DNA of 61,708 nucleotides, from assembly GCA_028292505.1 (NCBI GenBank), contig JAQGMF010000007.1, positions 1 through 61,708 of the forward strand. The letters run 5' to 3'. Shown here piece by piece: positions 277 to 61,200 of this stretch; the stretch's first letter is position 1; each line of letters begins with the position of its first letter. The translations under genes and the position numbers were made by a program. This DNA comes from Rhodocyclales bacterium. GTDB taxonomy: Bacteria; Pseudomonadota; Gammaproteobacteria; Burkholderiales; Rhodocyclaceae. Below the pieces are notes generated by a model. It was not told the DNA's origin and made no database searches. It saw only the letters and a program-made list of their open reading frames with translations.

Positions 277-534
277 CTAAGGCGGCGATTCAGCTACTGG
301 CGGCGGCGCGGTGGACTGGCGGATGTAGGCCCAATCGACATCGGCGCGCATGTCCTCGCACGCCACGGCACCGCCGGACTCGCGTTCCATGTTGATGCAG
401 AGGCTTTCGCCAAATTGCTGCTTGATGGACATTGCCTTGCGGAGATAGCCCAGCGTGGTGCCGCACCGCGTCGCGAAGTCGATGCGCGCGTCGTCGTCGG
501 GCAGGCTCTTGAGATATGCGCGAAGTGAGTTCAT
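277..534 (-). CDS. Cro/YdaS-like prophage transcriptional regulator
   Basis: 85 residues. The N-terminal 60 residues resemble the YdaS/Cro-like helix-turn-helix family: MNSLRAYLKSLPDDDARIDF, then the CGTTLGYLRKA turn-recognition segment, a second helix with SLCINMERESGG, and the typical ending ACEDMRADVDWAYIR. Proteins of this family bind phage operators as small dimers and turn on the lytic programme. It is divergent from the CI-like gene and read from a leftward promoter (541-569) whose -10 overlaps the first operator. The Pro-rich tail after residue 72 is probably disordered. Confidence 0.85.
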   Translation of the reverse strand: MNSLRAYLKSLPDDDARIDFATRCGTTLGYLRKAMSIKQQFGESLCINMERESGGAVACEDMRADVDWAYIRQSTAPPPVAESPP

Positions 535-611: not shown

Positions 612-1370
612 ATGGACGATCTCGAAACAAGACACCGACGTGCACGGCTTCGCGAGCTGATCGATGTCGGCTTCGATCAGAAGCTTGTCAATCTGCTTCG
701 ATTTATCGAACAAAGAACGGGCACCGCGCCCAATCAGGGCGAACTCTCCGCGTTGAAGCGCGAGAACAGCGGAAAGTCGTTTGGGGATAAAAAGGCAAGA
801 ACGCTGACCGAGCAAATCGGCCTGGATCGACGCTGGTTCGACGAACCGATGGGTTCGGGTCTTGAGCGGTTTCGCTCCGATGCGATGACCTATGAAACCA
901 TCGCTGCCGCATCGGTACCCAGCGAAGAGAGCCTGAACGAGCGCCGTGTCGGTGAACGACTCACCCCCTATCGCCGAGATGTCACGCCGATAGAGCTACA
1001 CCTTGAGGCGGCAGCAGATCGATTGCAGCTTGTGCAGAGCGGGAAGATGGGGCTGGCCCGCTATGCCCTGCCCAATGACCGCACGCAGGCCGTGCTGATC
1101 ACCGGCGGGGGATTGTCGCCACGCGTCGAGCATCGCGAGTTGCTGATTGTCGAGCTTGTGGAATTCTCGCCCGCCGTGGGCGACACCGTGTTGGTCTGCG
1201 GGCCGAGTCGGGAAGACTACGCCTTGGGTCGCGTACGCAGCTACTTTGCTGCAGAGCTCGAGATCGACCCCATGCAGGGCGGCAGGCCAGTGGCCATCCG
1301 CGGCGAGCATCTCTACTACTACACGCTCAAAGCCATTTTGATGCGCGGCGCCAATGTCACGCCAGTGTGA
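612..1370 (+). CDS. CI-like prophage repressor
   Basis: 252 residues. Residues about 8-75 look like the divergent HTH of betaproteobacterial phage repressors (RRARLRELIDVGF, then SFGDKKARTLTEQIGLDRRWFD). Residues about 150-245 resemble the S24/LexA-type dimerisation domain (HRELLIVELVEFSPAVGD); I cannot place a confident Ser-Lys catalytic dyad, so RecA-stimulated self-cleavage is uncertain. It is divergent from the Cro-like gene over the triple operator, so it should maintain lysogeny by blocking both early promoters and regulate itself from the third operator. The start is the ATG at 612. Confidence 0.82.
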   Translation: MDDLETRHRRARLRELIDVGFDQKLVNLLRFIEQRTGTAPNQGELSALKRENSGKSFGDKKARTLTEQIGLDRRWFDEPMGSGLERFRSDAMTYETIAAASVPSEESLNERRVGERLTPYRRDVTPIELHLEAAADRLQLVQSGKMGLARYALPNDRTQAVLITGGGLSPRVEHRELLIVELVEFSPAVGDTVLVCGPSREDYALGRVRSYFAAELEIDPMQGGRPVAIRGEHLYYYTLKAILMRGANVTPV

Positions 1371-4726: not shown

Positions 4727-5449
4727 ATGCCAACAAATCAAATCGAAATCACAAGGGAAAACTTCCAAATGTCATCTGATCAATTCGTCAGCATTCCCGA
4801 AACGACACTCCCCGGCGGAAGTGTGGTGCCGGCATTCCAAGTCATGCAGTACCCGGCATCCACGCTGGATGGCAAGCCGGTAAGCACACGTGAAGGCAAG
4901 CCATGGGTGCGCATCAGCTACCACGGCGCGGTGAAGGCTGCAGAGTCTGCTGGCTACAAGCTCGAGCGCGAAAGCCAGCGCTTGGCAGTGGCGTATCACA
5001 TCGCGGCGCAGCCCGCGAATTGGATGGGCGGCAAGGTCGGAGAAGGCAAGCTCTTCCAAGGTCTGCGCAAGGGCAATGCCAATGGCGTGCAAGACGCGGC
5101 TTATGAATCGAATGATCCAGACGAGCGCCGCTGGTTTGCGCTGCCCGGCGACCAAGTTATTTACGACATCGCTGGAAACGTCTGGCAGTGGGTCTTCGAC
5201 GACGTCCAAGGCGACTCACGCGGCTTGATCGGGAAGCCTTTTGCTGCCGACTCGGCGAGTCTCGTCATTCCCTTCCCAGACAAGCAGATGGGGCAAGGCT
5301 GGACGCCCAACGTTGGTGCCAATTGGTCCGGCCTTGCGCTCATTCGCGGCGGCTGCTGGCTTTCCGAGCGCGATGCGGGCGTCTTCCATCTCTACAACGA
5401 CTGGCCCGGCCTCGAGTACGACCTCATCGGCTTTCGCTGCACCAAATAA
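4727..5449 (+). CDS. DGR target protein 1 (C-type-lectin/FGE-like fold, variable C-terminus)
   Basis: 240 residues from 4727; an ATG at 4769 (residue 15) has the better upstream AAGGG and may be the true start. The protein is one formylglycine-generating-enzyme/C-type-lectin-like domain: ETTLPGGSVVPAFQV, WVRISYHGAVKAAE, NWMGGKVGEGKLFQGL, YDIAGNVWQWVFDD, then the variable end running from GANWSG to the terminal GFRCTK. In this fold the last ~40 residues form a surface loop set that tolerates massive change. No signal peptide or membrane segment is seen, so it is either cytoplasmic or a virion component. It lacks the ~90-residue N-terminal domain of target 2. Confidence 0.93.
   Translation: MPTNQIEITRENFQMSSDQFVSIPETTLPGGSVVPAFQVMQYPASTLDGKPVSTREGKPWVRISYHGAVKAAESAGYKLERESQRLAVAYHIAAQPANWMGGKVGEGKLFQGLRKGNANGVQDAAYESNDPDERRWFALPGDQVIYDIAGNVWQWVFDDVQGDSRGLIGKPFAADSASLVIPFPDKQMGQGWTPNVGANWSGLALIRGGCWLSERDAGVFHLYNDWPGLEYDLIGFRCTK
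5325..5439 (+). repeat. Variable repeat VR1
   Basis: 115 bases aligned without gaps to TR 10081-10195. Fifteen substitutions, all at TR adenines (A to T, C or G); every one of the 88 non-adenine bases is identical. Template Asn codons have become Leu, Leu, Asp, His, Tyr, Leu, Tyr and Leu, and the template Tyr codon has become Cys. The shared 3' end ATCGGCTTTCGCTG acts as the likely initiation-of-homing side; beyond it VR reads CACCAAATAA where TR reads ACCCAAGGAC. Confidence 0.97.
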
Positions 5450-5472
5450 CGGTCTCTGGACACCGGTCACGG

Positions 5473-5492
5473 GTCGCCGCTTCAGCGGTGAC
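5473..5492 (+). other. Hairpin downstream of VR1
   Basis: GTCGCCGCT / AGCGGTGAC, a 9-base stem with one G-T pair and a TC loop, begins 34 bases after the VR1 end and just beyond the stop codon. A hairpin at the same distance follows VR2 with different flank sequence but preserved pairing. Hairpin/cruciform structures after the VR are known to aid target recognition in the Bordetella phage DGR. Confidence 0.75.
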
Positions 5493-5519
5493 TCACAACA
5501 CAACAGCATGGAATAAATC

Positions 5520-6455
5520 ATGACATCAGCACTCGTAACACTGACGTCGAAGCTGGCACAGCGCTTGGACATGGGCGACGGTACAGGGTTGGTCGATGTG
5601 CTCAAAGCCACAGCCTTCAAGGGGCAGGTATCCGATGCGCAAATGACCGCATTGATGGTCGTAGCAAACCAGTACGGACTAAATCCTTGGACGAAGGAAA
5701 TCTATGCATTCCCCGATAAGAACAACGGCATTGTTCCTGTCGTTGGAGTTGATGGATGGTCACGCATCATCAACGAGCATCCTCAGTTCGATGGCGTTGA
5801 GTTCGAATATGGCCCAGCAACCGGCAATCACTTCGACTGGATTGAATGCGTGCTCTATAGGAAAGACCGCTCACGGCCAATCCGCGCGCGCGAGTTCTTT
5901 ACCGAGGTCTATCGAGATAACGCCCAACCGTGGAAAAGCCATCCCAACAGGATGCACCGTCACAAGTCACTCATCCAATGTTCCCGCATCGCGTTCGGCT
6001 TCGGCGGGATCTATGACCAGGACGAAGCCGAACGAATCATCGAAGGAAAAGAGATCGACATGGGCAGCGCCGATGTGGTCAGCACGCGCGCCGCCAAATC
6101 TGCCGAGCTGCCAGTTTATTCCAACGCCGACTTCCAAAAGAACCTGCCTGCATGGACGAAGCTGATTCAAGACGGCCGCGCGCCAGAGCGAATCATCGGC
6201 AAGGTCAACACGACAAGCCGCATGACCGATCAGCAGATTGCAGCTCTGCATGCGCTGGTCCCGAAGGCCGAAGCGCCGGCAGGCGAACTCATGGCCTCTA
6301 CTGCGCAGATAGACATCATCAAGACCACTGCCGATGCAGCGGCAGTCGGTAGCTCCGACATCTTCAACACGTTCGACATCGCCAGCTATGACGAAGTCAC
6401 GACAGCGATGGTTGATCCCATCCTCGATTTCATTGCTAACCCGATCACGGAGTAA
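5520..6455 (+). CDS. bet: Bet-like (RecT family) single-strand annealing protein
   Basis: 311 residues. The N-terminal two thirds match phage Bet: LKATAFKGQVSDAQMTALM, NQYGLNPWTKEIYAFPDKNN, VVGVDGWSRIINEHPQFDG, and later the basic HKSLIQCSRIAFGFGGIYDQ. It anneals complementary single strands made by the partner exonuclease. It is longer than lambda Bet because of a C-terminal extension (residues ~220-311) of low complexity. Start at 5520 with GGA upstream. It is followed two bases later by the YqaJ exonuclease gene and lies between the two DGR targets. Confidence 0.93.
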   Translation: MTSALVTLTSKLAQRLDMGDGTGLVDVLKATAFKGQVSDAQMTALMVVANQYGLNPWTKEIYAFPDKNNGIVPVVGVDGWSRIINEHPQFDGVEFEYGPATGNHFDWIECVLYRKDRSRPIRAREFFTEVYRDNAQPWKSHPNRMHRHKSLIQCSRIAFGFGGIYDQDEAERIIEGKEIDMGSADVVSTRAAKSAELPVYSNADFQKNLPAWTKLIQDGRAPERIIGKVNTTSRMTDQQIAALHALVPKAEAPAGELMASTAQIDIIKTTADAAAVGSSDIFNTFDIASYDEVTTAMVDPILDFIANPITE

Positions 6456-6457
6456 TC

Positions 6458-8182
6458 ATGCAACGCATTCAACACGATCTACTTCCGGGCACCGAGTCCT
6501 GGCAACAGTTCCGCATGGAGCACGACGGCGCCAGCGAAGCCGCGGCAATGCTTGGGCTCTCTGGCACGACCACGCGCAACGAGCTCCTGCGCCTCAAGCA
6601 CACCGGCATCGCGAAGGAATTCTGCGACTGGGTACAGCAAAACGTTCTCGACTACGGCCACGAAGTCGAAGCCAAGGCGCGCCCCATCGTCGAAGCGATG
6701 ATCGAAGAAGACCTCTACCCGGTCACGTTCTCCTACGGACAGATGTCTGCGTCATGTGACGGGCTGACTATGAACGAATCGACGGCCTTCGAGCATAAGC
6801 AACACAACGTCGAGCTGGCTGCTTCTGTCCGTGCCGGTGTGCTGCCTGAAGCCCACATGCCGCAGTGCCAGCAGATCATGTTCGTCACTGGCGCGCAGAA
6901 GGTCATCTTCGTGTGTTCGGATGGTACCGAAGACAACTTCGTCTGCATCGACGTACTGCCTGATCCAGCATGGTTTGCGCGCATCGAAGCAGGCTGGAAG
7001 CAGTTCCATGAAGACCTGCTCGATTACGCGCCCGCCGATATCGCACCAAAGGCAGTACCAGCACCAGTGAAGGATTTGCCCGCGATCGTTTATCGCCTCA
7101 ACGGTCTGGCCCTTCAGTCGAACCTGCCTGAGTACAAGGCCGCTGCGCTACAGCTGGTCGAAGACTCGAAGCGCGAGCTCGTCACTGATCAAGACTTCGC
7201 CGATCGCGACACGCTCTGCAAAGCTTTCAAGCTGGCCGAGCAGTCGATAGAACTGAAGAAGAAACAGGTGCTCGGCGAGATTACCGACGTCGACACCTTC
7301 TGCCGCGCCCTGGATGAAATCGGGGCACTCATTCGACAAGCGCGACTCGCCGGCGAGAAGATGGTCGAAGCTGAAAAGACCAATCGCAAGACTGCCATCG
7401 TCGCTGGCGCGCGCGAGAAGTGGGAAGCGCATCTTGCCGGCTTGAACAAGCAGCTCGGCAAGCCGTATATGCCTGTCATTTCCGCCGACTTCGGACTCTC
7501 TATCAAAGGCCTGAAGAGTCTCGAAAGCATGCACAACGCGGTCGATACGGAGCTGTCGCGCGCCAAGATCGAAGCCAATGCCGTCGCGCAGCGCATTCAG
7601 TTGAATCTGGCAAGCCTCACCGAGCTGGCCAGCGACCACAAGTTCCTTTTCGCCGACACCGCACAGCTGGTGCTCAAGCAGAACGACGACCTGATTGCGC
7701 TGGTGAAGACGCGCATCGCCGAGCATCAAGCGGCTGAGGCCAAACGCCTCGACGCCGAGCGCCAACGCATCCGCGCCGAAGAGCAGGCCAAGGCTGAGAA
7801 AGAAGCCGCCGCCAAGGTGAAGGCCGAGCAGGATGTGCTCGAAGCAAAGGCGCGTGAGGAAGAGCGTGCCCGCCAGCTTGCGACAGCCACACCAGCGCAA
7901 ACCCCAGCCGCAGAACCGGTAACGCTTCGTCAGGTTCTGCATTCAGCCTTGGCAGCACCAGTAGCTGACGCAATTTCGCCAAGCACGCCTCCGACACTGA
8001 CCCTCGGCAACATCAGCAAGCGACTGGGCTTCGACGTGCGCGCCGACTTCCTACACTCACTCGGCTTCGAAGGTCACAAAGATCGCTCGGCAATCCTCTA
8101 CCACGAGAGTGATTACCCGCGTATCTGCGCCGCAATCATCGCGCATATCCAGAACGTCAGCAGCCTGCGCGCAGCAGCGTAA
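6458..8182 (+). CDS. YqaJ-family phage exonuclease with long helical C-terminal part
   Basis: 574 residues. The N-terminal ~200 residues are a YqaJ/lambda-exonuclease nuclease domain: SWQQFRMEHDGASEAAAMLG, a helix carrying YGHEVEAKA, Asp101 in SASCDGL and Glu112-x-Lys114 in FEHKQHN as predicted metal-binding and catalytic residues. The remainder is helical, including a strongly charged coiled coil around residues 415-480 (Ala/Glu/Lys/Arg-rich), then an ordered end. It resects DNA to give Bet its single-stranded substrate. GGAG precedes the start at 6458. Confidence 0.88.
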   Translation: MQRIQHDLLPGTESWQQFRMEHDGASEAAAMLGLSGTTTRNELLRLKHTGIAKEFCDWVQQNVLDYGHEVEAKARPIVEAMIEEDLYPVTFSYGQMSASCDGLTMNESTAFEHKQHNVELAASVRAGVLPEAHMPQCQQIMFVTGAQKVIFVCSDGTEDNFVCIDVLPDPAWFARIEAGWKQFHEDLLDYAPADIAPKAVPAPVKDLPAIVYRLNGLALQSNLPEYKAAALQLVEDSKRELVTDQDFADRDTLCKAFKLAEQSIELKKKQVLGEITDVDTFCRALDEIGALIRQARLAGEKMVEAEKTNRKTAIVAGAREKWEAHLAGLNKQLGKPYMPVISADFGLSIKGLKSLESMHNAVDTELSRAKIEANAVAQRIQLNLASLTELASDHKFLFADTAQLVLKQNDDLIALVKTRIAEHQAAEAKRLDAERQRIRAEEQAKAEKEAAAKVKAEQDVLEAKAREEERARQLATATPAQTPAAEPVTLRQVLHSALAAPVADAISPSTPPTLTLGNISKRLGFDVRADFLHSLGFEGHKDRSAILYHESDYPRICAAIIAHIQNVSSLRAAA

Positions 8183-8228
8183 TCGCTACCCAAAGCAGTT
8201 CTATCTCAACCGTCGAAGGAATCACCAA

Positions 8229-9143
8229 ATGAACGCACCTGAATCAGCAGTAGCCGTGAATCCAGATACCCAGCGTGGCATCTACCCCAAGTACAACGTC
8301 TCACGCGTCGATGGCAGCGACGCGCCCGGCGAACGCAATCATGGCCACATGCATTTCGTTCTGGACCTGGACAAGTTGGCGACGGATGCGCATGCCAAGT
8401 CTGCAATCGTGGCTTACATCGAATCGTGCGAAGAAGAATTCCCGCTGCTCGCTGAAGACCTACGCGGCTATGTGGATCGCATGCAGCCGGTCGCGTTCAT
8501 CTCAGTTCCAGAAGTGACGTTACCGAACGGCGTTGTCGTGCCGAGCTTCAGCGTCGGTCAGCACCTGTGCAGCCAGTCCCCTGATGGAACGCCTTGGGTT
8601 GAAGTCAGTTACCACAATGCGCGCAAGGCCTGCGAACGCGCCGGCACGAAGCTCATCACCGAACTGCAAGCCCTGGCCATCGCTCACGAAATCGCGCAGC
8701 AGGACATCAACTGGACGGGCGGCAAAGTTGGCGAAGGCAACATCTTCATTGGAATCCACAAGGGCAACGTAGGAGAGGTGCAGCCGGCCGCCTACATCTC
8801 ACCCGATGAAGAAGAGCGCCGCTGGCATCAGCTGAGCAATGGCGAATGCATTTACGACTTCGCCGGACACTGCTTCACCTGGGTGTTTGACGATGTACAG
8901 GGCAATGCCGACGGCATCGTGGATCGTGTCATTGCGGCTGACTCGCCCAGCCTGACGACAGCGCCTTTCCCAAGCCGCGAGAAGGGCACCGGATGGCGGC
9001 CCCAAGCTGGTGCCAATTGGTCCGGCAGTGCGCTCATACGCGGCGGCTGCTGGCATTCCGGGCGCCATGCGGGCGTCTTCTATCTCGGCTACGTCTGGCC
9101 CGACCGCGAGTTCGACAACATCGGCTTTCGCTGCACCAAATAA
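8229..9143 (+). CDS. DGR target protein 2 (N-terminal phage domain plus lectin-like variable domain)
   Basis: 304 residues from the ATG at 8229, which has AAGGA upstream; the longer open frame overlaps exo and is not needed. Residues ~18-90 form an extra domain (KYNVSRVDGSDAPGERNHGH, FVLDLDKLATDAHAKSAI) typical of small phage proteins. Residues ~95-304 are the same lectin/FGE-like fold as target 1 (WVEVSYHNARKACERAG, NWTGGKVGEGNIFIGI, YDFAGHCFTWVFDD), ending in VR2 and GFRCTK. No signal peptide. The two targets share the fold but are well diverged outside the VR, so they are not a recent duplication. Confidence 0.93.
   Translation: MNAPESAVAVNPDTQRGIYPKYNVSRVDGSDAPGERNHGHMHFVLDLDKLATDAHAKSAIVAYIESCEEEFPLLAEDLRGYVDRMQPVAFISVPEVTLPNGVVVPSFSVGQHLCSQSPDGTPWVEVSYHNARKACERAGTKLITELQALAIAHEIAQQDINWTGGKVGEGNIFIGIHKGNVGEVQPAAYISPDEEERRWHQLSNGECIYDFAGHCFTWVFDDVQGNADGIVDRVIAADSPSLTTAPFPSREKGTGWRPQAGANWSGSALIRGGCWHSGRHAGVFYLGYVWPDREFDNIGFRCTK
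9019..9133 (+). repeat. Variable repeat VR2
   Basis: 115 bases aligned without gaps to TR. Fourteen substitutions, all at TR adenines, none elsewhere. Eight template adenine sites are changed in both VRs, some to different bases, and the others are changed in only one, so the two VRs were mutated independently. Template Asn codons became Ser, His, His, Tyr, Gly, Tyr, Arg and Phe, Glu became Gly and Asp became Val. As in VR1, the template Tyr codon TAC is TGC (Cys). Confidence 0.97.
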
Positions 9144-9165
9144 CGGTCTCTGGTTTCAGGTCACG

Positions 9166-9186
9166 GGTCGCCGCGTAGCGGTGGCC
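9166..9186 (+). other. Hairpin downstream of VR2
   Basis: GGTCGCCGC / GCGGTGGCC pair over 9 bases (two G-T pairs) with loop GTA, starting 33 bases after VR2. The left arm is nearly the same as after VR1 but the outer right arm differs (GGCC here, GAC there). It sits at the same place relative to the stop codon. Confidence 0.72.
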
Positions 9187-9205
9187 TGCCCTCAGCCACT
9201 TTGAA

Positions 9206-10057
9206 ATGATCATGACAAACAGCACGCCATCATCCGAAGAGTTGCAGCAGCTTGGCATACGCGCATACCGCGGCATTGAGCTCGGCTTGGGCGAGTCAGA
9301 TCCAGGTGCAGCCATCTCGGCCAAACTCGAAGTGCAGTATCCGGGACATCTGGTGCTCGTACAGGCGGGCACCTTTCTGCACGGTTACGACCGCACGGCG
9401 CACGCGCTCAGCACTCTGAAGCAGTACAAGCTGAAGCTGGTCGGCACGGCCAACGATCCGCACTTACGGGTTGGATTTCCGCTCGGAAACTTCAAGCGCC
9501 GCTTGTGGCAGATGGTCGATGAATTCGGCATTCCCTATGTCGTGGCACTCGGCACTCAAGCCAGCGGCCGAACGATCTACACATCGAATCAGCCCACCGG
9601 AAACACTCGCGTACTGGCTGCAATCTCCCAAGACATCATCAGCCAGGTGATTGACGATTTGCGCCAGCGCGGAGAGCTGAACAAAGCGTCCGTGAAACAG
9701 ATGCTGACCCATCCAGACAGCACAGGATTCAAGCTCAAGAGTCACGCGGTCGAACTCGACACGATGCTGATGCAGGACATTGTGAAGATGCCACGCGATC
9801 TGCGCACGACGTACGGCGAGAACGTGCGTATCTGCATGGCCCGCATCATGCACGGCGTCATGGGATATGGCGTCACCAATCACAAGGTCGACGTGCTGCA
9901 TGGCCTGTCCGGCGACATCGACCTGCTGAAGCATTACCTCATTCAGGCCAAACAGCTTAGCCAACTCAAGTTCGCATTCGCGCAGCGAGCTGGCTTAGCT
10001 GTTGAGCTTGGGCGCCTCCTTGGTGGCATGCTGAATGCACAAAGGACAGCGTCATGA
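9206..10057 (+). CDS. DGR accessory protein: MutS-I-like domain fused to an Avd-like helical domain
   Basis: 283 residues (a second ATG at 9212 is equally possible; no strong ribosome-binding site). Residues ~41-150 resemble MutS domain I: QYPGHLVLVQAGTFLHGYDR, VGFPLGNFKRRLWQMVDEFG, then IPYVVALGTQ and a strand pair. Residues ~185-278 look like an Avd-type four-helix bundle (helices around DLRTTYGENVRIC, DIDLLKHYLIQAKQ and LAVELGRLLGGML). Avd binds the reverse transcriptase and template RNA; MutS-like accessory domains have been noted in DGR surveys. The stop overlaps the first RT start as ATGA. Confidence 0.78.
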   Translation: MIMTNSTPSSEELQQLGIRAYRGIELGLGESDPGAAISAKLEVQYPGHLVLVQAGTFLHGYDRTAHALSTLKQYKLKLVGTANDPHLRVGFPLGNFKRRLWQMVDEFGIPYVVALGTQASGRTIYTSNQPTGNTRVLAAISQDIISQVIDDLRQRGELNKASVKQMLTHPDSTGFKLKSHAVELDTMLMQDIVKMPRDLRTTYGENVRICMARIMHGVMGYGVTNHKVDVLHGLSGDIDLLKHYLIQAKQLSQLKFAFAQRAGLAVELGRLLGGMLNAQRTAS

Positions 10058-11346
10058 CCGACAAGGGGAGCTTTCTCAAAGGTCCGGCAATGCGCTCATA
10101 CGCGGCGGCTACTGGAATTCCGAGCGCAATGCGGGCGTCTTCAATCTCAACAACGACTGGCCCGACAACGAGAACGACAACATCGGCTTTCGCTGACCCA
10201 AGGACATATAGCTCGGACGCCGGCCACGCTGGCGGGGAGTTCCTTCTTGGTCGAGAGTTTCCTGGGGCGAATGTTGCCTCGAAAGCACGGCAATATGCCA
10301 ACCCTGTAACCGCGACGGGGCCTACGGGTGCCGTTGCGGAAGCACGGTCCGACTTCTTCGCTCTGACCTCGCTGGACAACCTGTACGCCTGCTGGATGAG
10401 GGCTAAGGCAAGCAAGGGCCAGTCGATCAGGGTACAGCGCTTTGCCGAAGATCCGCTGCGCTACCTGCTGCTCATTCAGCAACGCCTGCGTGCGCGCAAC
10501 TACACATTCGGCCCGTACCGAACTTTCACCGTCATTGAGAAGAAACGTCGCGACGTAGTCGATGCTCCGATGAAAGACCGCATCGTGCATTGGATGCTGT
10601 ACGAATATCTGCTGCCCATCTGGCAGCCGAGAATGATTCACGACACCTACGGCAATCTGCCTGGCCGTGGAACGCTCGCAGCGGTGCAACGCCTCGCACA
10701 GTTCTGCCGCTCCGGAAATGCCAAGTGGGCGCTGCAGCTCGATGTCAGCAAGTATTTCTACTCGGTACCGCATGAAGGTCTGAAGGCGCGCGCGTTGCGT
10801 TACATCGGCGACCATGACGTGCGGCAATTGCTCATCAGCCTGATCGATTCGTACCGCACCGATGATCGTTACGACGAATTGTTTTCAGCTGAAAGCCTCT
10901 ACCGCACCACGGAGGCCAAGGGCATGCCGATCGGCAACCTGAGCAGCCAGCTGTTCGCGAATATCTTTCTGTGCGACTTCGATCATTGGGTAAAGCAGAC
11001 CCTCTGCGTCAATCGCTACATCCGATATGTCGACGACATCGTCATCGTGTCTGACGACCGCGACGAACTCATCTCGCAAGGCCGGCAAATCACTGAACGT
11101 CTCGCCGCCATGGGCTTGACGATTCACCCGTACAAGGCGCGCCTGGCGCGCATTACGGCCAGCGCACCGTTCCTTGGCTATGTGGTGTGGCCGAACCACA
11201 TCAGCGCTGGTCAGCGAATCCGTAGCCGGTATCACCGCCGCCTGCGTCAGCACGAGCGCGGCGAGCGTGACCGCTCCGAATCAATTCAGTCCTATCGCTC
11301 GATGCTTGCGCACACGGGCTCAACCGTTTCCCACACAAAGGAGTAG
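10054..11346 (+). CDS. DGR-type reverse transcriptase
   Basis: 430 codons from the ATG at 10054. The recognisable RT begins near residue 104 (LTSLDNLYACWMRAK) and has Asp230 in LQLDVSKYF, the DGR-typical GMPIGNLSSQ at 290-299, YVDD at 325-328 and a thumb-like end. GNLSSQ replaces the QGxxxSP motif of most other RTs and marks DGR enzymes. In frame there is no ATG, GTG or TTG between 10129 and 10396, and starting at 10396 would cut into the conserved N-terminus. So the likely start is 10054 (AGGA upstream, ATGA overlap with the accessory gene) or an ATG inside TR (10090, 10129). It copies TR RNA with errors at adenines. Confidence 0.93.
   Translation: MTDKGSFLKGPAMRSYAAATGIPSAMRASSISTTTGPTTRTTTSAFADPRTYSSDAGHAGGEFLLGREFPGANVASKARQYANPVTATGPTGAVAEARSDFFALTSLDNLYACWMRAKASKGQSIRVQRFAEDPLRYLLLIQQRLRARNYTFGPYRTFTVIEKKRRDVVDAPMKDRIVHWMLYEYLLPIWQPRMIHDTYGNLPGRGTLAAVQRLAQFCRSGNAKWALQLDVSKYFYSVPHEGLKARALRYIGDHDVRQLLISLIDSYRTDDRYDELFSAESLYRTTEAKGMPIGNLSSQLFANIFLCDFDHWVKQTLCVNRYIRYVDDIVIVSDDRDELISQGRQITERLAAMGLTIHPYKARLARITASAPFLGYVVWPNHISAGQRIRSRYHRRLRQHERGERDRSESIQSYRSMLAHTGSTVSHTKE
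10081..10195 (+). repeat. Template repeat TR
   Basis: 115 bases with 27 adenines, giving nine AAY Asn codons when read in the VR frame. The match to both VRs starts abruptly at GGTCCGG and ends at TTCGCTG; in the VR frame TR then meets TGA where VRs read TGC (Cys). It lies between the accessory gene stop and the RT core and is also inside the open RT frame, read one base out of phase as a Thr/Ser/Ala-rich stretch. The ~150 bases after it probably form the spacer part of the template RNA. Confidence 0.97.
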
Positions 11347-16482: not shown

Positions 16483-16761
16483 ATGAGCCACGCCACCACA
16501 TCCTATCCGGTCCTGCCGCAAGAGTTCTTCAGCATTGCCGAGCTCGTTGCAATGCTTGGACCACAGCGTCGCGACGGGCTAATCGGGTTACTCAAAGCCG
16601 CCAACGTTTCCTTTGTTGTCGGCCGCCATGGCTGGCCACTTGTGTATCGCGACCGGCTATTGCCAGGTACCGAGGCAAGCGAGCAAGATTCGACGACGCC
16701 ATCATTCAACTTCGATGCTATCCATGCCGCCAGCAGGACGTCCGCGCACCGCCGCCAATAG
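16483..16761 (+). CDS. Excisionase-like (DUF4224-type) protein
   Basis: 92 residues. The segment EFFSIAELVAMLGPQRRDGL followed by LKAANVSFVVGRHGWPLVYR matches the short DUF4224/AlpA-like proteins that sit directly before phage integrases and act as directionality factors. The C-terminal ~30 residues are probably unstructured. Its 3' end overlaps the 5' end of the integrase gene by about 38 bases in another frame, which suggests coupled expression. Confidence 0.7.
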   Translation: MSHATTSYPVLPQEFFSIAELVAMLGPQRRDGLIGLLKAANVSFVVGRHGWPLVYRDRLLPGTEASEQDSTTPSFNFDAIHAASRTSAHRRQ

Positions 16762-17797
16762 GGACTTGCCGCCGAATATGCTTCGGCGCAAGCGTGGCGA
16801 CTCGACGCTCTATTACTACCAGCATGCGGACGGTCGGCATGAAGCGCTAGGCTCTGACTTCCGCAAGGCGCAGATCCGCTGGAGCGCGATACAGGCCGAA
16901 CTTGCTTCGCACTCTGCCGATGGCTTCACAGCAGTGGCCGAAGCCTATGAGAAACGCGGCATAGCAGCACTATCGCCAAAGACACAGAGCGAATACTGCG
17001 CCGCGCTGGTCAGGCTTAAAGCCGTTTTTCGCAATGCACCGATGCACACTGTCTTGCCCGGCGATGTTGGCAAGATGATGGACAAGCTGATCGACACACC
17101 ATTCCTCGCCAACCGCATCAAGGCAACGCTCTCGCGCATGTGGAATTGGGCGCGTGGCAAAGGGCTAACCAGCGCCCCCAATCCCTGCGTCGGCGTCGAG
17201 AGCTACCATGAACCGCGTCGTCAAGTACTCGTTACGCCCCAGATGTTTTGGGATATGCATGACGCTGGCGATCAGGTATTGAAAGACTGGCTGCGCCTGG
17301 ACATGCTCATCGGGCAACGTGTAACCGACATTCTCAAATTGCGCCGGGATCAGATTACGATCAAGGAAGATCGGCAGGTCCTGGGCATGCGCGCGAAAAA
17401 GAACCGTGCGCTCGGCCAATTCAATGTCACCGGGGACCTGGCAGCCCTTCTCGACGAGCTGTTGATGCGCCCGCGCAAGGCGACAGGTCCGTGGCTAGTG
17501 CAGACCGACGATGGCCAGCGAGTCACTTATACGATGCTTAAGAACCGCTTCGACGCCGCGCGCGATGTGCTGCGAGAACGAGCAGAGAAAGCCGGAGAGG
17601 AGTGGGTGCATTGGCAGCGTCGCGACCTCCGCAAAGCTTCGCTGAACCTTGCAAAAACGCTGGAAGAGGCGCGCCGTCGCGGGCTCCATCTTGACAGCCG
17701 GACCACTGCTCGACACTATGAATTAGCCATTGAAGCAGAGGCTGCAAGCATGCCAAAACGCGTCAGTAATTCAGACACAGACCCGCATCAAACCTAG
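16724..17797 (+). CDS. int: Tyrosine-type phage integrase
   Basis: 357 residues from the ATG at 16724 (16715 is possible). An AP2-like arm-binding N-terminus (MLRRKRGDSTLYYYQHADGR), a SAM-like core-binding domain (~60-160) and the catalytic domain follow. The first catalytic Arg lies in LIGQRVTDILKLR; box II reads WQRRDLRKASL (RDLR in place of HxxR, as in some phage integrases); the nucleophile is the Tyr in TTARHYE. The canonical LGH of box III is not visible. The gene points at the tRNA fragment 68 bases downstream, as expected for an integrase next to its attachment site. Confidence 0.9.
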   Translation: MPPAGRPRTAANRDLPPNMLRRKRGDSTLYYYQHADGRHEALGSDFRKAQIRWSAIQAELASHSADGFTAVAEAYEKRGIAALSPKTQSEYCAALVRLKAVFRNAPMHTVLPGDVGKMMDKLIDTPFLANRIKATLSRMWNWARGKGLTSAPNPCVGVESYHEPRRQVLVTPQMFWDMHDAGDQVLKDWLRLDMLIGQRVTDILKLRRDQITIKEDRQVLGMRAKKNRALGQFNVTGDLAALLDELLMRPRKATGPWLVQTDDGQRVTYTMLKNRFDAARDVLRERAEKAGEEWVHWQRRDLRKASLNLAKTLEEARRRGLHLDSRTTARHYELAIEAEAASMPKRVSNSDTDPHQT

Positions 17798-53711: not shown

Positions 53712-55922
53712 ATGAGCGAATCACAACCTACTATCTTGCAGACCGAACCCACTGCACCTGCCGCCGGCGTGGCGCCGACGAGCACGTGGCGTATCAATCC
53801 CCATACCACGCACGTTGACCCGCTGGTCAGCTGCCTGGTGCTGCTGACACGCCACTTTGGTCATCCATGGACGGCCGAAGCCCTGGTAGCTGGCCTGCCT
53901 TGCGTGGACCACCTGTTGCCCCCGTCGCAGTTGTCACGTGCGGCGAGTCGCGCCGGCCTTTCGGTCAGTCTTGCGCGTCGGCCGCTCGGGCATCTGCGCG
54001 AACATCACCTGCCCGCACTGCTGCTATTGCATGACAAGCACGCCTGCCTGTTGCTGGAGCGCCGCCTCGACGGCACCTGTCTGATCCGCGAGCCCGAATC
54101 CCCCGAGGCCGTACACGAAATCCCGCTTGCCCAGCTCGAAGCGAGTTATACCGGCACCGTGGCGATCATCAAGCCGCGCTTCCGTTTCGATGCGCGCACG
54201 CCCGAAGTCGGCAAAGTGCGTGGCCGTCACTGGTTCTGGGGCGCGCTGTTCGCCAACTGGCGCCTGTACCGCGACGCGCTGCTGGCCGCCTTGTTGATCA
54301 ATATCTTCGCCACGATCATCCCGCTGTATTCGATGAACGTATATGACCGTGTCGTACCCAACCACGCGCTCGAAACGCTATGGGTACTGTCACTCGGTGC
54401 GCTATTGATGCTGTTCTTCGATCTGACGCTGCGCACCCTGCGCGCCTACATCATCGACACCGCCAGCAAACGCATCGATGTCAGCCTGTCGGCACTGATC
54501 ATGGAACGCGTGCTCGGCGTCAGACTCTCGTCGCGGCCTGTATCCGTCGGCTCGTTTGCGGCCAACCTGAAAGCCTTTGAAGGCGTGCGCGATTTCGTGG
54601 CGTCGGCAACGGTCACGGCCCTCATCGACCTGCCCTTCGTGCTGATCTTCCTATTCGTGCTGATCTGGATCTCACCGTGGATGTCCATACCGGCCCTGGT
54701 CGGCATGGTGCTGGTGGTCGGCACGGCGTGGATTACGCAAGCGAAAATGCACGAGCTGACCGAGACAACCTATCGCGCCAGCGCACAGCGCAATGCCACG
54801 CTCATCGAGAGTCTGGTCGGGCTGGAGACCATCAAGACGTTGGGCGCCGAAGGCGAGTTCCAACGCCGTTGGGAGCGCGCCACGCAGTTCATCGCGCAAG
54901 TCAGCAATCGCACCCGCCTGCTCTCTTCGGGCACGGTGAATTTTTCGCAAACGATTTCGCAACTGGTCAACATCACCACCATCATGACAGGTGTATATCT
55001 GCTGTCGGATGGCAAGATCACCATGGGTGCCATCATCGCCTCGAGCATGTTGTCGGGCCGCGCGCTGGCACCGCTGGGCCAGGTGGCGGGCCTGATGATG
55101 CAGTTCCAGGGGGCGCGTACCGGCATGACCTCGCTGGAGTCGCAGATGAAGCTCCCCGTCGAGCGCCCCGACGATGCGCCCTTCGTGCACCGACCGCAAT
55201 TTCAGGGCGACATCGAATTCAAGGACGTGGCTTTCGCCTATCCGGGCCGCGACCAGAAAGTGTTGCGCAAGGTCTCGTTCAAGATCAAGGCCGGTGAGAA
55301 GGTCGGCATCATCGGTCGCATCGGTTCGGGCAAGACGACGCTGGAAAAACTCATCCTTGGCCTGTACCAGCCGACCGAAGGTGCCGTCCTCATCGACGGC
55401 GTGGACGCGCGCCAGATCGACCCGGCCGAACTGCGCCGCGCTATCGGCTTCGTGCCGCAAGACGTGACGCTGTTCTATGGCTCGCTCAAATACAACATCG
55501 CCATGGGCGCCCCGTTCGCCGATGACAGCACCATACTCGCGGCGGCGGAGCTGGCCGGTGTATCGGAATTCGCCAACGCGCATCCGCAGGGCTTCGACAT
55601 GCTCATCGGCGAGCGTGGCGAGTCGCTCTCTGGCGGCCAGCGCCAGACCGTGGCGATTGCACGCGCCATGATCACCGACCCGCCCATCCTGCTACTCGAC
55701 GAGCCCAGCGCCAGCATGGACCACCAGAGTGAGGAACAGCTCAAACAGCGCCTGCGCAATTTCGCCGTGCGCAAGACCGTTGTGCTCGTCACTCACCGCA
55801 CCTCGCTGCTGGACATGGTGGATCGCCTGATCGTCGTCGACAGCGGCACCATCGTGGCCGACGGACCGAAAGCACAGGTCGTCGAGGCCTTGCAACATGG
55901 CCGTATCGGGAGAGCGGCATGA
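53712..55922 (+). CDS. Type I secretion ABC transporter (LapB/LssB-like)
   Basis: 736 residues. An N-terminal C39-like domain (~45-160; DPLVSCLVLLTRHFGHPWTA and LHDKHACLLLERR) precedes six membrane helices and the ATPase with Walker A GRIGSGKTTLEKLILGLYQP, signature ESLSGGQRQTVAIARAM and Walker B PILLLDEPSASMD. Lap-type transporters keep a C39-like domain without peptidase activity; here a Cys is present but activity is unclear. Exports the giant adhesin downstream. Overlaps the membrane-fusion gene. Confidence 0.9.
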   Translation: MSESQPTILQTEPTAPAAGVAPTSTWRINPHTTHVDPLVSCLVLLTRHFGHPWTAEALVAGLPCVDHLLPPSQLSRAASRAGLSVSLARRPLGHLREHHLPALLLLHDKHACLLLERRLDGTCLIREPESPEAVHEIPLAQLEASYTGTVAIIKPRFRFDARTPEVGKVRGRHWFWGALFANWRLYRDALLAALLINIFATIIPLYSMNVYDRVVPNHALETLWVLSLGALLMLFFDLTLRTLRAYIIDTASKRIDVSLSALIMERVLGVRLSSRPVSVGSFAANLKAFEGVRDFVASATVTALIDLPFVLIFLFVLIWISPWMSIPALVGMVLVVGTAWITQAKMHELTETTYRASAQRNATLIESLVGLETIKTLGAEGEFQRRWERATQFIAQVSNRTRLLSSGTVNFSQTISQLVNITTIMTGVYLLSDGKITMGAIIASSMLSGRALAPLGQVAGLMMQFQGARTGMTSLESQMKLPVERPDDAPFVHRPQFQGDIEFKDVAFAYPGRDQKVLRKVSFKIKAGEKVGIIGRIGSGKTTLEKLILGLYQPTEGAVLIDGVDARQIDPAELRRAIGFVPQDVTLFYGSLKYNIAMGAPFADDSTILAAAELAGVSEFANAHPQGFDMLIGERGESLSGGQRQTVAIARAMITDPPILLLDEPSASMDHQSEEQLKQRLRNFAVRKTVVLVTHRTSLLDMVDRLIVVDSGTIVADGPKAQVVEALQHGRIGRAA

Positions 55923-57301
55923 ACATTTTTCAGAGCATCTACCTACGCTTCTCTTCCGCTTATGACAAATTCATGTCGCGGACAGAGCAGATGGCCAGCT
56001 ACGCCGAAGACGATTTCGAGGCCGACGCCAACTGGGCCATCAACGAACAAACACCACGTGGCGCGCGCCTTGCGGTATGGACAGCCGGGCTGTTCCTGCT
56101 GGCGCTGATCGTCTGGGCGGCGCTGGCCCAGCTCGACGAAGTCACACGCGGTGAAGGCAAGGTCATCCCATCGCGGCAGGTGCAGATCCTGCAGAGTCTG
56201 GACGGCGGCATCGTCGAGGAAATCCGCGTCGCGGAAGGTCAGGTGGTCAAGGCTGGCGATGTGCTGCTAAAGATCGATCCGACACGTTCCATTTCTTCGC
56301 TGAATGAAAACCGGGCCGACTACCTGTCGCTGCAGGCCAAGGCCTCACGCCTGCGCGCACTGGCCGAAGGCAAGCCTTTCGTGGCGCCCCCCGACGTGCA
56401 GTCGCAAGCGCCGGAAAACGTAAACCAGGAGCGCTTCCTGTACGAATCCAAGCGTTCGGAACTGGAAGCCAATATCGGCATCGCACGCCAGCAGTTGACG
56501 CAACGCGGTCAGGAACTGGCCGAGATGAAAGTGCGACGCGACAGCTCGTCGCAGAGCCTTGATCTGACACAGGCGGAGCTCGACAAGACGCGCCCGCTGT
56601 TCAAGACCGGCGCCGTTTCCGAAGTCGAATTGTTGCGCCTGGAACGCGACGTGGCGCGCTACAAGGGCGAACGCGATTCGGCCAGCGCACAGATTCCGCG
56701 CATCGAATCGGCAATGGCCGAAGCGCAACGCAAGATCCAGGAAGTCGAACTGACTTTTCGCAACCAGGCGCGCACCGAACTCTCCGACACTGTTGCAAAA
56801 CTTTCGCGTCTCAGCGAAGGCAGCGTCGGCTTGGCTGACCGCGTCAAGCAGACCGATATCCGCTCGCCGGTCAACGGCACCGTCAAGCAGTTACTGGTCA
56901 ACACAGTGGGCGGCGTCGTGCAGCCCGGCAAGGAGGTAATCGCTATCGTGCCGAGCGACGATGCCCTGCTGCTCGAAGCCCGCGTATCGCCGCGCGACAT
57001 TGCCTTCTTGCGCCCCGGACAGCCCGCGCTGGTCAAGTTCACCGCCTACGATTTCTCCATTTATGGCGGGCTGGACGCCAAGCTCGAACACATCGGCGCG
57101 GACACCATCACCGATGAAAAGGGCAATGCGTTTTACATCGTGCGCGTGCGCACGGTGACCACGCAGCTGGGCAAGCAGAAGCTGCCGATCATTCCCGGCA
57201 TGGTCGCGGAAGTCGACATTCTGACCGGCAAGAAATCCATCCTCTCCTACTTGCTCAAACCCGTGCTCAGAGCCCGAGCAACGGCGCTGACGGAAAGATG
57301 A
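55919..57301 (+). CDS. HlyD-family membrane fusion protein (LapC-like)
   Basis: 460 residues. One membrane helix at ~55-75 (VWTAGLFLLALIVWAALAQL), then EVTRGEGKVIPSRQVQILQS (barrel-sandwich entry), long coiled coils (~100-300) and the closing lipoyl part with KQTDIRSPVNGTVKQLLVNT and VVQPGKEVIAIVPSDDALLL. Bridges the ABC transporter to a TolC-like channel, which is not in the window. ATGA overlaps link it to both neighbours. Confidence 0.92.
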   Translation: MNIFQSIYLRFSSAYDKFMSRTEQMASYAEDDFEADANWAINEQTPRGARLAVWTAGLFLLALIVWAALAQLDEVTRGEGKVIPSRQVQILQSLDGGIVEEIRVAEGQVVKAGDVLLKIDPTRSISSLNENRADYLSLQAKASRLRALAEGKPFVAPPDVQSQAPENVNQERFLYESKRSELEANIGIARQQLTQRGQELAEMKVRRDSSSQSLDLTQAELDKTRPLFKTGAVSEVELLRLERDVARYKGERDSASAQIPRIESAMAEAQRKIQEVELTFRNQARTELSDTVAKLSRLSEGSVGLADRVKQTDIRSPVNGTVKQLLVNTVGGVVQPGKEVIAIVPSDDALLLEARVSPRDIAFLRPGQPALVKFTAYDFSIYGGLDAKLEHIGADTITDEKGNAFYIVRVRTVTTQLGKQKLPIIPGMVAEVDILTGKKSILSYLLKPVLRARATALTER

Positions 57302-58210: not shown

Positions 58211-61200
58211 ATGGCTGAAATGAATAATCCGCAGTTGCAAGGCACCGTTCAACACATCGAGGGCAATGCCTGGCTGAGGCTGCCCGATGGCAAGATGATC
58301 GTGCTCAAGGTGGGTGATCACATCAACCCCGGCGACGTCATCGTCACGGACCACAATGCCCACGTCGAACTCGCGCGGCCGAACGGCGCGGTACTGGACA
58401 TCGGCCCGGATCGCACCCTGCTCGCAGATCAGGACGTATTGAGCCAAAGCGCGCCAGATCGATCCGAAGCAGCGATCCTGCCGCTCGGCACCGATGCAGA
58501 ACGCGTCATCGCGGCTTTGAATGCCGGCCAGGATCCGTTCGCTATCGTTGACCCCGCCGAGGCCGGATTGATCGCTGGCGGCCAGGACAGTGGCCATGGC
58601 TTTGTGCGTCTGTTGCGTATCACCGAAGGTGTCACCGCGACGACTTTCGATGCCACTTCGGGCAGCACCCAGACCGAACTTCTGCCACCGCATGGCGCTG
58701 ATCCAGTACTGCAGCAACAAGCCCTTACGCCCACTCCCCCCCCCGCGCCGGATAGTCTAGTGCTCAGCACTTCTGGCGGTACGATCAGCGAGGGTGGCAG
58801 CATCGTTTACACGGTCAGTGCCGGCGCGCCGGTCAGCGGCACTCCGCTCGTCATCACACTCAGCTCGGGCACGACGATCACAATTCCTGTCGGCGCCAGC
58901 AGCGCCAGCAGCACGCCGGTTCCTGTTCGCAGCGACGATGTTTACATCGAGGGCCCCCAATCGATCACGGCGAGCATTACCTCGGCAACGGGCGGTACGT
59001 TCAGCACGTATGAAGCGGGCTCACCCGTCACGACGGTGGTGAACGACGATGCCGACACAACGACGGTCACCCTGGCTGCAACACCCTCGGCAACTGAAGG
59101 CGGCAATATCGTTTACACCGCCACGCTCAGCAACCCGGCCGCAACACCCGTCACCGTTGCACTGTCCAACGGCGCCCACATCACGATCGCCCCCGGCGCC
59201 GTCAGTGGCACGGTCACGGTTGCCGCACCGGCAGACGATGTATATGTCAATAGCGTACCCGTTACCACTGCCATCGTCAGCGCAAGCGGCGGTGGTTTTG
59301 AAAATCTGGTGCCCGATACGACACCGGCATCGACCACCATCAACGACACGGTCAACACCACCACGGTTACGTTGAGCGCCCCCGCCACCGCCATCGAAGC
59401 CGGCACCATCACCTATTCCGCCAGCGTCGACCACGCGGTCACCGGCAGTCCACTGGTGCTGACGCTGTCCAACGGCACAACAATCACCATCCCGGTCGGC
59501 AGTAGCACCGGGACCAGTGCACCGATCGTTGCGCGCACTGACGACGTCTATACGCAAGGCAGCACGGCCGTGCCTGTCAGTATCACCTCGCATACGGGTG
59601 GTAACTTCGAGGCGCTCGACACCAGCAGCACCGCGACGACTTCCGTCACCGACGACAGCGATGCGACAACGGTATCGCTTTCCGCAACACCGACCGTTGC
59701 CGAAGGCGGCTCGATCACTTACACCGCCACGCTGACGAGTGCTGCCGCATCGCCCGTCACAGTCACGCTCGATAATGGCGCTGTCATTACCATCGCCGCG
59801 GGTGCTCTGACCGGCAATGTCGCAGTCGCGGCGCCGGGCGATGATGTGTATGTCGATGCAGCACCCGTCAGCGCTGCGATTACCACGGCCACCGGTGGCG
59901 GTTTCGAGAACCTTGTGGTCAATGCCACGCCTGTAACAACAAATATTCCCGACACGATTGACACAGTCACGGCCACGCTCGGCGCGACACCGAGTGTCGT
60001 CGAAGGTGGCTCGATCACTTACACGGTTAACCTGCCTGTAAACGTGACGGGCTCCGCAGTCGTTGCAACACTCTCGAATGGCCTGACGATCACTATTCCC
60101 GTCGGCAGCAATACAGGCACAGCCAGTGTGCCTGCTGGAGACAATGTGTATGCTGGCGGCGGCAGTGCAACAGCTAGCATCACCGGCATTTCCGGCGGCA
60201 ACTTCGAACATCTCGTGGCCAGCAGCACGCCAGCGGCCACGACAATCACCGATGACAGCGACACAACGACCGTCTCGCTTTCCGCAACGCCGACCGTTGC
60301 CGAAGGCGGCTCGATCACTTACACCGCTACGCTGACGAGTGCTGCCGCATCGCCGGTTACCGTCACGCTCGATAATGGCGCTGTCATTACCATCGCGACG
60401 GGCGCTCTGACTGGCAATGTCGCGGTCGCGGCGCCGGGCGATGATGTGTATGTCGATGCTGCGCCCGTCAGTGCCAAGATTGCCGGCGCCACGGGCGGCG
60501 GTTTTGAGAACCTTGTAGTCAATGCAACGCCTGCGACAACAAACGTCCCCGATACCATTGACACGACCACAGTCTCGCTTTCCGCAACACCGACCGTTGC
60601 CGAAGGCGGTTCGATCACTTACACCGCCACACTGACAAGTGCCGCCGCGTCGCCGGTTACCGTCACGCTAAATAATGGCGCTGTCATTACCATCGCAGCG
60701 GGCGCTCTAACTGGCAATGTCGCGGTCGCGGCGCCGGGCGACGATGTGTATGTCGATGCAGCACCCGTCAGCGCCGCGATTGCTACGGCCACGGGCGGCG
60801 GTTTCGAGAACCTTGTGGTCAACGCCACGCCTGTAACAACAAATATTCCCGACACGATTGACACGGTGACAGCCACGCTCAGTGCGACACCGAGCGTCGT
60901 CGAAGGCGGCACGATCACCTATACCGTTACGCTGCCTGCAATGGTCACCGGCTCGCCGGTTGTGGCAACGCTTTCCAACGGCGCGACGATCACCATCCCG
61001 GTTGGTAGCAATACCGGCACGGCCAATGTGACAGCGGCCGATGATGTGTATGCGGGCGGCGGCAGTGCGACGGCGACCATCACGACAATTTCTGGTGGCA
61101 ATTTCGAGCACCTCGTTGCCAGTAGTGCACCTGCGACAAGCACGCTCACCGACGACAGCGATGCGACGACTGTCTCGCTTGCAGCCACGCCAACCGTTGC

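Follow-up and report, generated by a model that had tools for sequence, protein, structure and literature searches.

A prophage diversity-generating retroelement with its template repeat inside the reverse transcriptase reading frame

Diversity-generating retroelements (DGRs) are a source of targeted protein diversity. How they balance synthesis of the reverse transcriptase (RT) against use of the template, and how mismatched complementary DNA (cDNA) survives host repair, are to our knowledge open questions. Both are raised by a prophage DGR of a Rhodocyclales bacterium (assembly GCA_028292505.1, contig JAQGMF010000007.1, positions 1 to 61,708; this whole stretch of 61,708 nucleotides is called the window), in which the template repeat (TR) lies inside the RT open reading frame (ORF), directly after a gene for a predicted MutS-Avd fusion. 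We put the probability at about 0.93 that this is a DGR in the early arm of a prophage, whose RT, together with the predicted MutS-Avd protein, likely copies TR with errors at adenines and rewrites two predicted lectin-fold genes. The parts of the element are as follows:

4727..5449, forward strand: target gene 1 (VP1), FGE-sulfatase/C-type-lectin-like (PF03781, E 4.1e-7)
5325..5439, forward strand: variable repeat VR1
5471..5494, forward strand: hairpin behind VR1, 10-bp stem, TTCA loop (hairpin scan)
8229..9143, forward strand: target gene 2 (VP2), extra N-terminal part and lectin-like C-terminal part, start inferred
9019..9133, forward strand: variable repeat VR2
9164..9188, forward strand: hairpin behind VR2, 11-bp stem, GTA loop (hairpin scan)
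9206..10057, forward strand: accessory protein, predicted MutS domain I plus Avd four-helix bundle (AlphaFold2, Foldseek)
10054..11346, forward strand: RT ORF, containing TR and spacer in frame; its ATG overlaps the avd stop (ATGA, 10054-10057)
10081..10195, forward strand: template repeat TR (alignment to VR1 and VR2)
10195..10353, forward strand: spacer, structured RNA with eight helices in the family consensus (covariation), open in the RT frame
10354..11346, forward strand: RT domain (PF00078, E 3.3e-23; phrog_1423, E 5.3e-99; tree)

Realignment reproduced exactly the repeat coordinates and base counts of the initial annotation. Without gaps, TR differed from VR1 at 15 of 27 adenines (seven to T, five to C, three to G) and from VR2 at 14 of 27 (six to G, five to T, three to C), and none of the 88 other bases was changed in either repeat. 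The chance of adenine-only change is 7e-12 for VR1 and 6e-11 for VR2. The repeats can be extended upstream by three template adenines, which gives 17/30 and 16/30 changed, respectively. Both VRs lie at the 3′ end of their target genes, and a search of the genome itself (3.80 Mb, 57 contigs, 92.7% complete) at E 0.001 found no repeat copies beyond TR, VR1 and VR2.

The RT translation contains IGNLSSQ, in agreement with the GNLSSQ motif annotated initially, and YVDD. Its best solved relative was the DGR RT 8ub7_A (E 1.4e-30; next match E 1.3e-13). In a tree of 38 rows, midpoint-rooted for drawing only, a 24-row clade with support 99/99 held five rows of the window's family and all 12 phage DGR RTs included, the placement that had been predicted at the outset. 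Outside this clade, 11 of 14 rows show QGxxxSP, a motif of group II-like RTs. The window RT family forms a separate long branch (support 100/100, length 1.73); the RT of the closest phage record is about 31% identical, and no phage record is close to the window DGR. Adenine-only change and an RT among DGR RTs together confirm the identification of the element as a DGR.

We assembled 86 loci, the window included, from viral and genome collections. After six loci without an RT match, L065 (no RT near Avd) and L122 (misplaced) were dropped, 78 had Avd and RT in order, and 61 of these were distinct by sequence: 54 of type I, with RT directly after the spacer, and seven with something between spacer and RT. 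A VR search that left adenine mismatches free and allowed at most 10 others per 117 bases yielded 108 TR-VR pairs in 57 of the 61 distinct loci, with 1723 of 2754 adenines and 39 of 9234 other bases changed. Sixteen pairs of records could be compared: seven were the same source twice, two had no matched VR (L015/L058, L086/L093), three had identical VRs and four differed. Because L083 and L084 share one difference relative to L119, the four differing pairs represent three independent cases, and in these all 46 VR differences fell at TR-adenine sites. Across 19,744 bases, the IMG/VR records L083 and L119, whose sample numbers are not the same, show 8 differences, every one at a TR-adenine site of a single VR. 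The VR of L097/L101 differs at 15 of 24 adenine sites and 0 of 87 others, with 6 of 200 upstream bases different; their second VR, compared by position only, adds 15 differences at adenines and none elsewhere. The VR of L088/L090 differs at 23 of 29 adenine sites and 0 of 82 others, with 8 of 200 upstream bases different.

The initial annotation had expected adenine-site variation across a population and an invariant TR. The first was seen in the VRs of relatives rather than in this genome, and non-adenine VR changes as common as adenine changes were not seen among them; the TRs of L088 and L090 differ at one adenine. A point against the putative activity in this genome is that Avd in the variant-pair relatives has 60-63% identity to the window's protein. 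Three of the records (L015, L060 and L075), from two collections, are the same prophage of Aromatoleum toluclasticum (strain ATCC 700605 for L060), a named, cultured host of the window DGR family; Thauera butanivorans NBRC 103042 (L059) is a further cultured relative.

That TR lies in the RT reading frame had escaped the initial annotation: the RT ORF, 10054-11346, starts before TR and contains it. In the window, the only in-frame ATG, GTG or TTG codons before the RT domain are the ATGs at 10054, 10090 and 10129, before or inside TR. All 54 type I loci have an ATG overlapping the avd stop and a frame open through TR and spacer. Past the start codon, the TR-spacer-RT frame of these 54 loci has no stop in 5,383 codons, whereas the other two frames have 88 and 101. 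Their spacers are 147-174 bases long, every one a multiple of 3, and 13 of the loci, the window included, have no ATG, GTG or TTG from codon 49 to the first RT-domain codons. In the structural model, leader residues 1-97 have a pLDDT below 50 (predicted disordered), and the RT domain is confident from about residue 101.

The frame is also kept where another gene or copy stands between spacer and RT. Six of the seven such loci have the inserted gene fused in frame to TR-spacer, and the RT of these six opens with a separate ATG three codons ahead of its domain. The fusion partner is a D12 methyltransferase in L062 (7251-8348, E 3.3e-22), Dam in L112 (4862-5641, E 2.1e-11), an H-NS domain in L060 (10843-11382, E 1.4e-8), which is a copy of L015, and proteins without a Pfam match at 0.01 in L076 (2645-3241) and L106 (10852-11916); the fusion locus L058 is a close relative of L015. 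The exception, L115, is not an in-frame fusion. It carries a second TR-like copy between avd and the TR-RT ORF (9336-10712), possibly a product of TR/VR recombination.

The arrangement is not a universal DGR trait, which is ruled out by seven of 13 phage DGRs with a stop between TR and RT (Dulem37, nd12, BalMu-1, Perkons, crAss, YPCBV-1, vir525). Two of the 13 have the window's layout (ACA1, VP58.5), three are open with a start codon after TR (BPP-1, phiARM81mr, Haboob), and ANMV-1 is ambiguous. Twelve further loci were passed through the frame check: five had no RT match (L022, L025, L029, L049, L050), three had TR downstream of RT (L024, L026, L028), two had a stop between or inside TR (L023, L027), and two were open through TR (L030, L031).

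Several observations weigh against the reading that TR is translated. Some of the 54 loci are nearly identical and do not count as independent. Across 52 loci, neither TR (p 0.84) nor the spacer (p 0.11) shows an excess of change at third codon positions; the RT domain shows a strong one (p 0.0002). This test left out L090 (short at a contig end) and L095, whose RT ORF stops at residue 226, itself a further point against, and one row showing ATC as its first codon was taken as an alignment shift. An earlier test on 17 loci likewise found no third-position excess in the leader, so selection on the leader peptide is not supported. Codon 13, which falls inside TR, is an ATG in 50 of 52 loci, and in most the RT might start there. 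Shine-Dalgarno-like cores stand at the coupled ATG in 49 of 54 loci and likewise in 49 of 54 at a control offset, and we dropped them as support. Since the third-position excess is absent, the leader peptide is not visibly selected, and a start at the first ATG is something we infer. The simplest reading of these frames is that the translatability of the TR-spacer RNA is kept, rather than its peptide. TR, which lies in an open frame leading into the RT in the window and 53 related cassettes, is likely also translated into protein.

The spacer is also a covarying structured RNA. A consensus fold from 41 of the 54 spacers, picked for diversity, has 36 pairs. Pairing was found in 96.3% of cells, compared with 87.0 after shuffling; 26 pairs were changed on both sides, compared with 13.0, and 148 cells, compared with 38.7. 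None of 500 shuffles reached the observed covariation values. Sliding the partners by 1-3 columns lowered pairing to 35-49%, a comparison that favours the structure because it was derived from the same alignment. In helix 1, GACC at the TR end pairs with GGTC in the spacer in 41/41 sequences. Rfam at gathering thresholds gave no match within the window. On the target side, 91 of 108 VRs are followed, about 40 bases past their core, by a hairpin of 8 bp or more whose pairs covary; shuffled sequences gave 4 of 108. According to the cited part of PMC3521204, some DGRs need a hairpin or cruciform downstream of VR to recognise the target. The DGR had been called complete, a description that leaves out the VR hairpins and the spacer RNA, and the surrounding prophage is cut by the contig end.

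The accessory gene had been described as Avd-like. We utilized AlphaFold2 to predict its structure (mean pLDDT 71.8). The model consists of mixed helices and strands to about residue 126 and of helices from residue 142. In Foldseek, the three highest-ranking matches are MutS chains, with roughly 90-110 columns aligned (best E 1.2e-3 at probability 1.00). Bundles of the Avd kind are matched as well; among them is chain 8ub7_C, a DGR Avd, at E 0.038 and a target-based TM-score of 0.77. At E 0.01, bAvd was matched in 15 of 20 family members. The Avd-like bundle is retained by fold for the C-terminal part, and in place of a plain Avd the model suggests a MutS-domain-I/Avd fusion. At E 0.001, 381 proteins match the accessory protein; the best 120 of the 381 cover 94-100% of the query, and hosts, where named, are mostly betaproteobacteria (Undibacterium, Gallionella, Azonexus) and one Luteibacter.

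Some searches speak against the predicted fusion. No Foldseek match reached E 0.001; the Avd model NF033474 scores 26 bits on the window protein, below its cut-off of 80, and the Avd domain lies below the Pfam and NCBIfam cut-offs in this protein; at E 0.01, two of the 20 family members match MutS_I (PF01624), and the window protein does not match it. Phe 57 is kept in 20 of 20 aligned family members and stands where MutS has the Phe of its FxE motif; a nearly invariant His takes the place of the MutS Glu. By the predicted fold, the MutS domain may act at mismatches.

Next to this protein and the RT, the targets themselves are predicted to be lectin-like. For VP1, which carries the FGE-sulfatase domain, a sequence search for homologous solved structures found no match in the PDB at 0.01. 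VP2 has no Pfam match; the ORF 8109-9143 matches phrog_9572 (sulfatase-modifying factor, E 4.6e-48), and by eye its start is most likely the ATG at 8229. Forty loci have at least 6 kb upstream, and 25 of these have two targets, eight have three and seven have one, which makes one template with two targets the commonest arrangement.

Both targets sit in the early arm of the prophage, beside bet and exo and outside the tail module. In eight of 10 virus records, all target copies lie within about 8 kb of TR. In G107 and G108 some copies are at the opposite end of the record, and in G108 one target gene is split across the record ends, which fits circular records (unproven for G107). In G108, a 38-kb record, the DGR lies on one strand and the genes tested for terminase, portal, protease and tail on the other. 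Viral DGR clades 1, 4 and 6 have mostly tail genes as targets in the cited part of Roux 2021 (PMC8144416). Judged by gene position, the window's targets may be early, non-virion proteins; position alone is no proof of such a role. Pseudomonas phage Haboob (L132, 4145-7113), on another RT branch, also places two genes with two VRs in the interval from CI to Bet, and early-arm DGRs may be a wider theme.

The neighbouring prophage genes are:

277..534, reverse strand: Cro-like regulator (phrog_35 transcriptional repressor, E 1.3e-7)
612..1370, forward strand: CI-like repressor candidate, named by eye, no PHROG match
5520..6455, forward strand: Bet/RecT single-strand annealing protein (TIGR01913, E 9.7e-26; phrog_252, E 1.3e-78)
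6458..8182, forward strand: RecE/YqaJ-type exonuclease (phrog_7655, E 2.5e-162; PF09588, E 1.8e-10)
16613..17797, forward strand: tyrosine integrase (phrog_1, E 2.4e-17)

Target 1, Bet, RecE, target 2, MutS-Avd, TR-RT and an RNase T-like exonuclease follow one another on the same strand, flanked by the Cro/CI-like region and the integrase, near which the prophage presumably ends. Residues 9-79 of the CI-like candidate, its N-terminal part, match a stretch of locus L020 (tblastn, E 7e-8). The window starts at base 1 of the contig, inside the prophage, and the left arm from the Cro-like gene to the integrase is present. Late genes of this prophage were not found in the assembly with two terminase queries, a relative's protein and the PHROG family phrog_9, of which the latter matches in 4 of 14 control genomes. 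The lambda-like prophage proposed initially can be seen only by half: Cro, Bet, RecE and the integrase were found, CI was recognised by eye only and late genes were not seen. A Bet/RecT-type or phrog_3657 match stands upstream in at least 13 of the 40 loci, a lower bound because four query proteins were used; a Red recombinase as a fixed part of the DGR is not supported. Far from the DGR, at 59021-61708, 300-base units follow one another toward the window end, with minus-strand shadow ORFs of 99 amino acids. Inspection of the ORF list by eye suggests that these units are perhaps a repetitive secreted adhesin, since the nearby genes at 53712-57301 resemble those of an ABC exporter with a membrane fusion protein as its partner.

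How might such a cassette work? Transcription would start from the early operon. Ribosomes ending avd would restart at the overlapping ATG and traverse TR and spacer, and the RT made in this way would carry a leader of some 100 disordered residues. On a ribosome-free transcript, RT and Avd would bind the folded spacer and prime cDNA there; TR would be copied mutagenically, and the cDNA would replace VR beside its hairpin. The putative binding site of the RT is part of the sequence that encodes it; occupation of this site would for that reason repress RT synthesis, so that RT bound to the spacer could shut off its own translation and turn messenger into template. The ligand of the MutS domain would be the cDNA/VR duplex with its mismatches, and Bet could aid cDNA annealing, though it is no constant DGR neighbour. 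The full proposal, in which TR is obligatorily coding, RT-Avd on the spacer switches the RNA between messenger and template, and the early operon with a mismatch-sensing MutS-Avd diversifies two early non-virion proteins, is tentative, with the odds clearly against all of it holding together.

The strongest competitor concerns the targets. They look lectin-like, and both could be receptor-binding parts of the virion encoded away from the other virion genes, in an ordinary tropism-switching DGR. We rate this somewhat below even odds: the clustering of all target copies near TR in eight of 10 virus records speaks against it, the other two records fit circularity (with the caveat for G107), and the tested head and tail genes of G108 lie on the opposite strand. 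It is unlikely that the element is a fossil, once active in a prophage that is now a remnant with nothing diversified in this genome. A terminase not found with the two queries and a contig that begins inside the prophage would suit a remnant; the DGR genes are nevertheless open, the VRs differ from TR at adenines without decay elsewhere, and in a genome 92.7% complete the late genes may sit on an unbinned contig.

Less probable still is that the open TR-spacer frame is an accident of composition and that translation of the RT begins at a non-standard codon close to its domain. The lack of a third-position signal in TR and spacer would agree with an accident, as would the ATG, TTG or GTG that some loci have at or near the RT-domain start, and BPP-1, whose frame is open yet whose RT has its own ATG after the spacer. 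Such an accident is hard to reconcile with 0 stops against 88 and 101, with spacers in multiples of 3 in 54 loci, with the 13 loci, the window included, that offer no usual start codon from codon 49 to the RT domain, and with inserted genes that are also in frame, in loci where the RT carries a separate ATG. An RT of the group II intron, retron or defence type beside chance repeats can hardly be entertained. NCBIfam group_II_RT_mat does score the RT, at 114 bits, far below its cut-off of 300. The tree, in which no grouping with group II introns or retrons was seen, and the best PDB match, 8ub7, rule this identity out, and the SQ motif, the adenine-only repeats, the Avd fold and the spacer RNA all point to a DGR.

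A DGR in the early arm that likely rewrites two predicted lectin-fold genes remains our preferred reading, and it can be set beside known systems. The BPP-1 DGR (mtd-avd-TR-brt) shares with the window the order target-avd-TR-spacer-RT, adenine-only change, a hairpin directly behind VR in sequence, and a brt frame open through TR and spacer with 0 stops (L057:2238-2515). Unlike the window, it starts brt at a separate ATG behind the spacer and has a single tail target and an Avd lacking a MutS domain, and its RT is about 31% identical to the window's. The cited part of PMC12875486 describes a structured BPP-1 spacer that recruits RT-Avd, with priming and mutagenic copying of TR. In Pseudoalteromonas phage ACA1 and Vibrio phage VP58.5, as in the window, the RT ORF opens at the overlap with the avd stop, contains TR and has no start codon between TR and the RT domain; both differ in having a separate RT lineage and a plain Avd, and the ACA1 target is a tail antireceptor. 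For ACA phages, the cited part of PMC10612066 reports an RT that is extended at its N terminus by the translated TR.

A MutS-like protein (MSL, PF01624) is a known DGR accessory in the cited part of PMC10053308. By its description there, on which the comparison is based, MSL resembles the window in placing MutS domain I beside a DGR RT, whereas in the window domain I is predicted to be fused to an Avd bundle. The Haboob DGR likewise has a pair of VRs in two genes of the CI-Bet interval, and differs in its RT branch, in a TR that ends just ahead of the RT ATG, and in a separate four-helix bundle protein where the window has the predicted MutS-Avd fusion. Structure group 3 of Schillinger 2012, in which TR overlaps the annotated RT ORF, is a class of cassette layouts; section 13 of that paper (PMC3521204) does not discuss frame conservation, avd coupling or gene fusions. 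Translation of TR and its overlap with the RT ORF are already known from the cited parts of these sources, and the wider frame rule may have an earlier account in the literature. In the window family, template, putative RT-binding RNA and coding sequence are one stretch in a conserved frame. The family also has an accessory protein with a predicted MutS domain, its targets lie away from the tail module, and its 61 distinct loci supply natural sequence variation.

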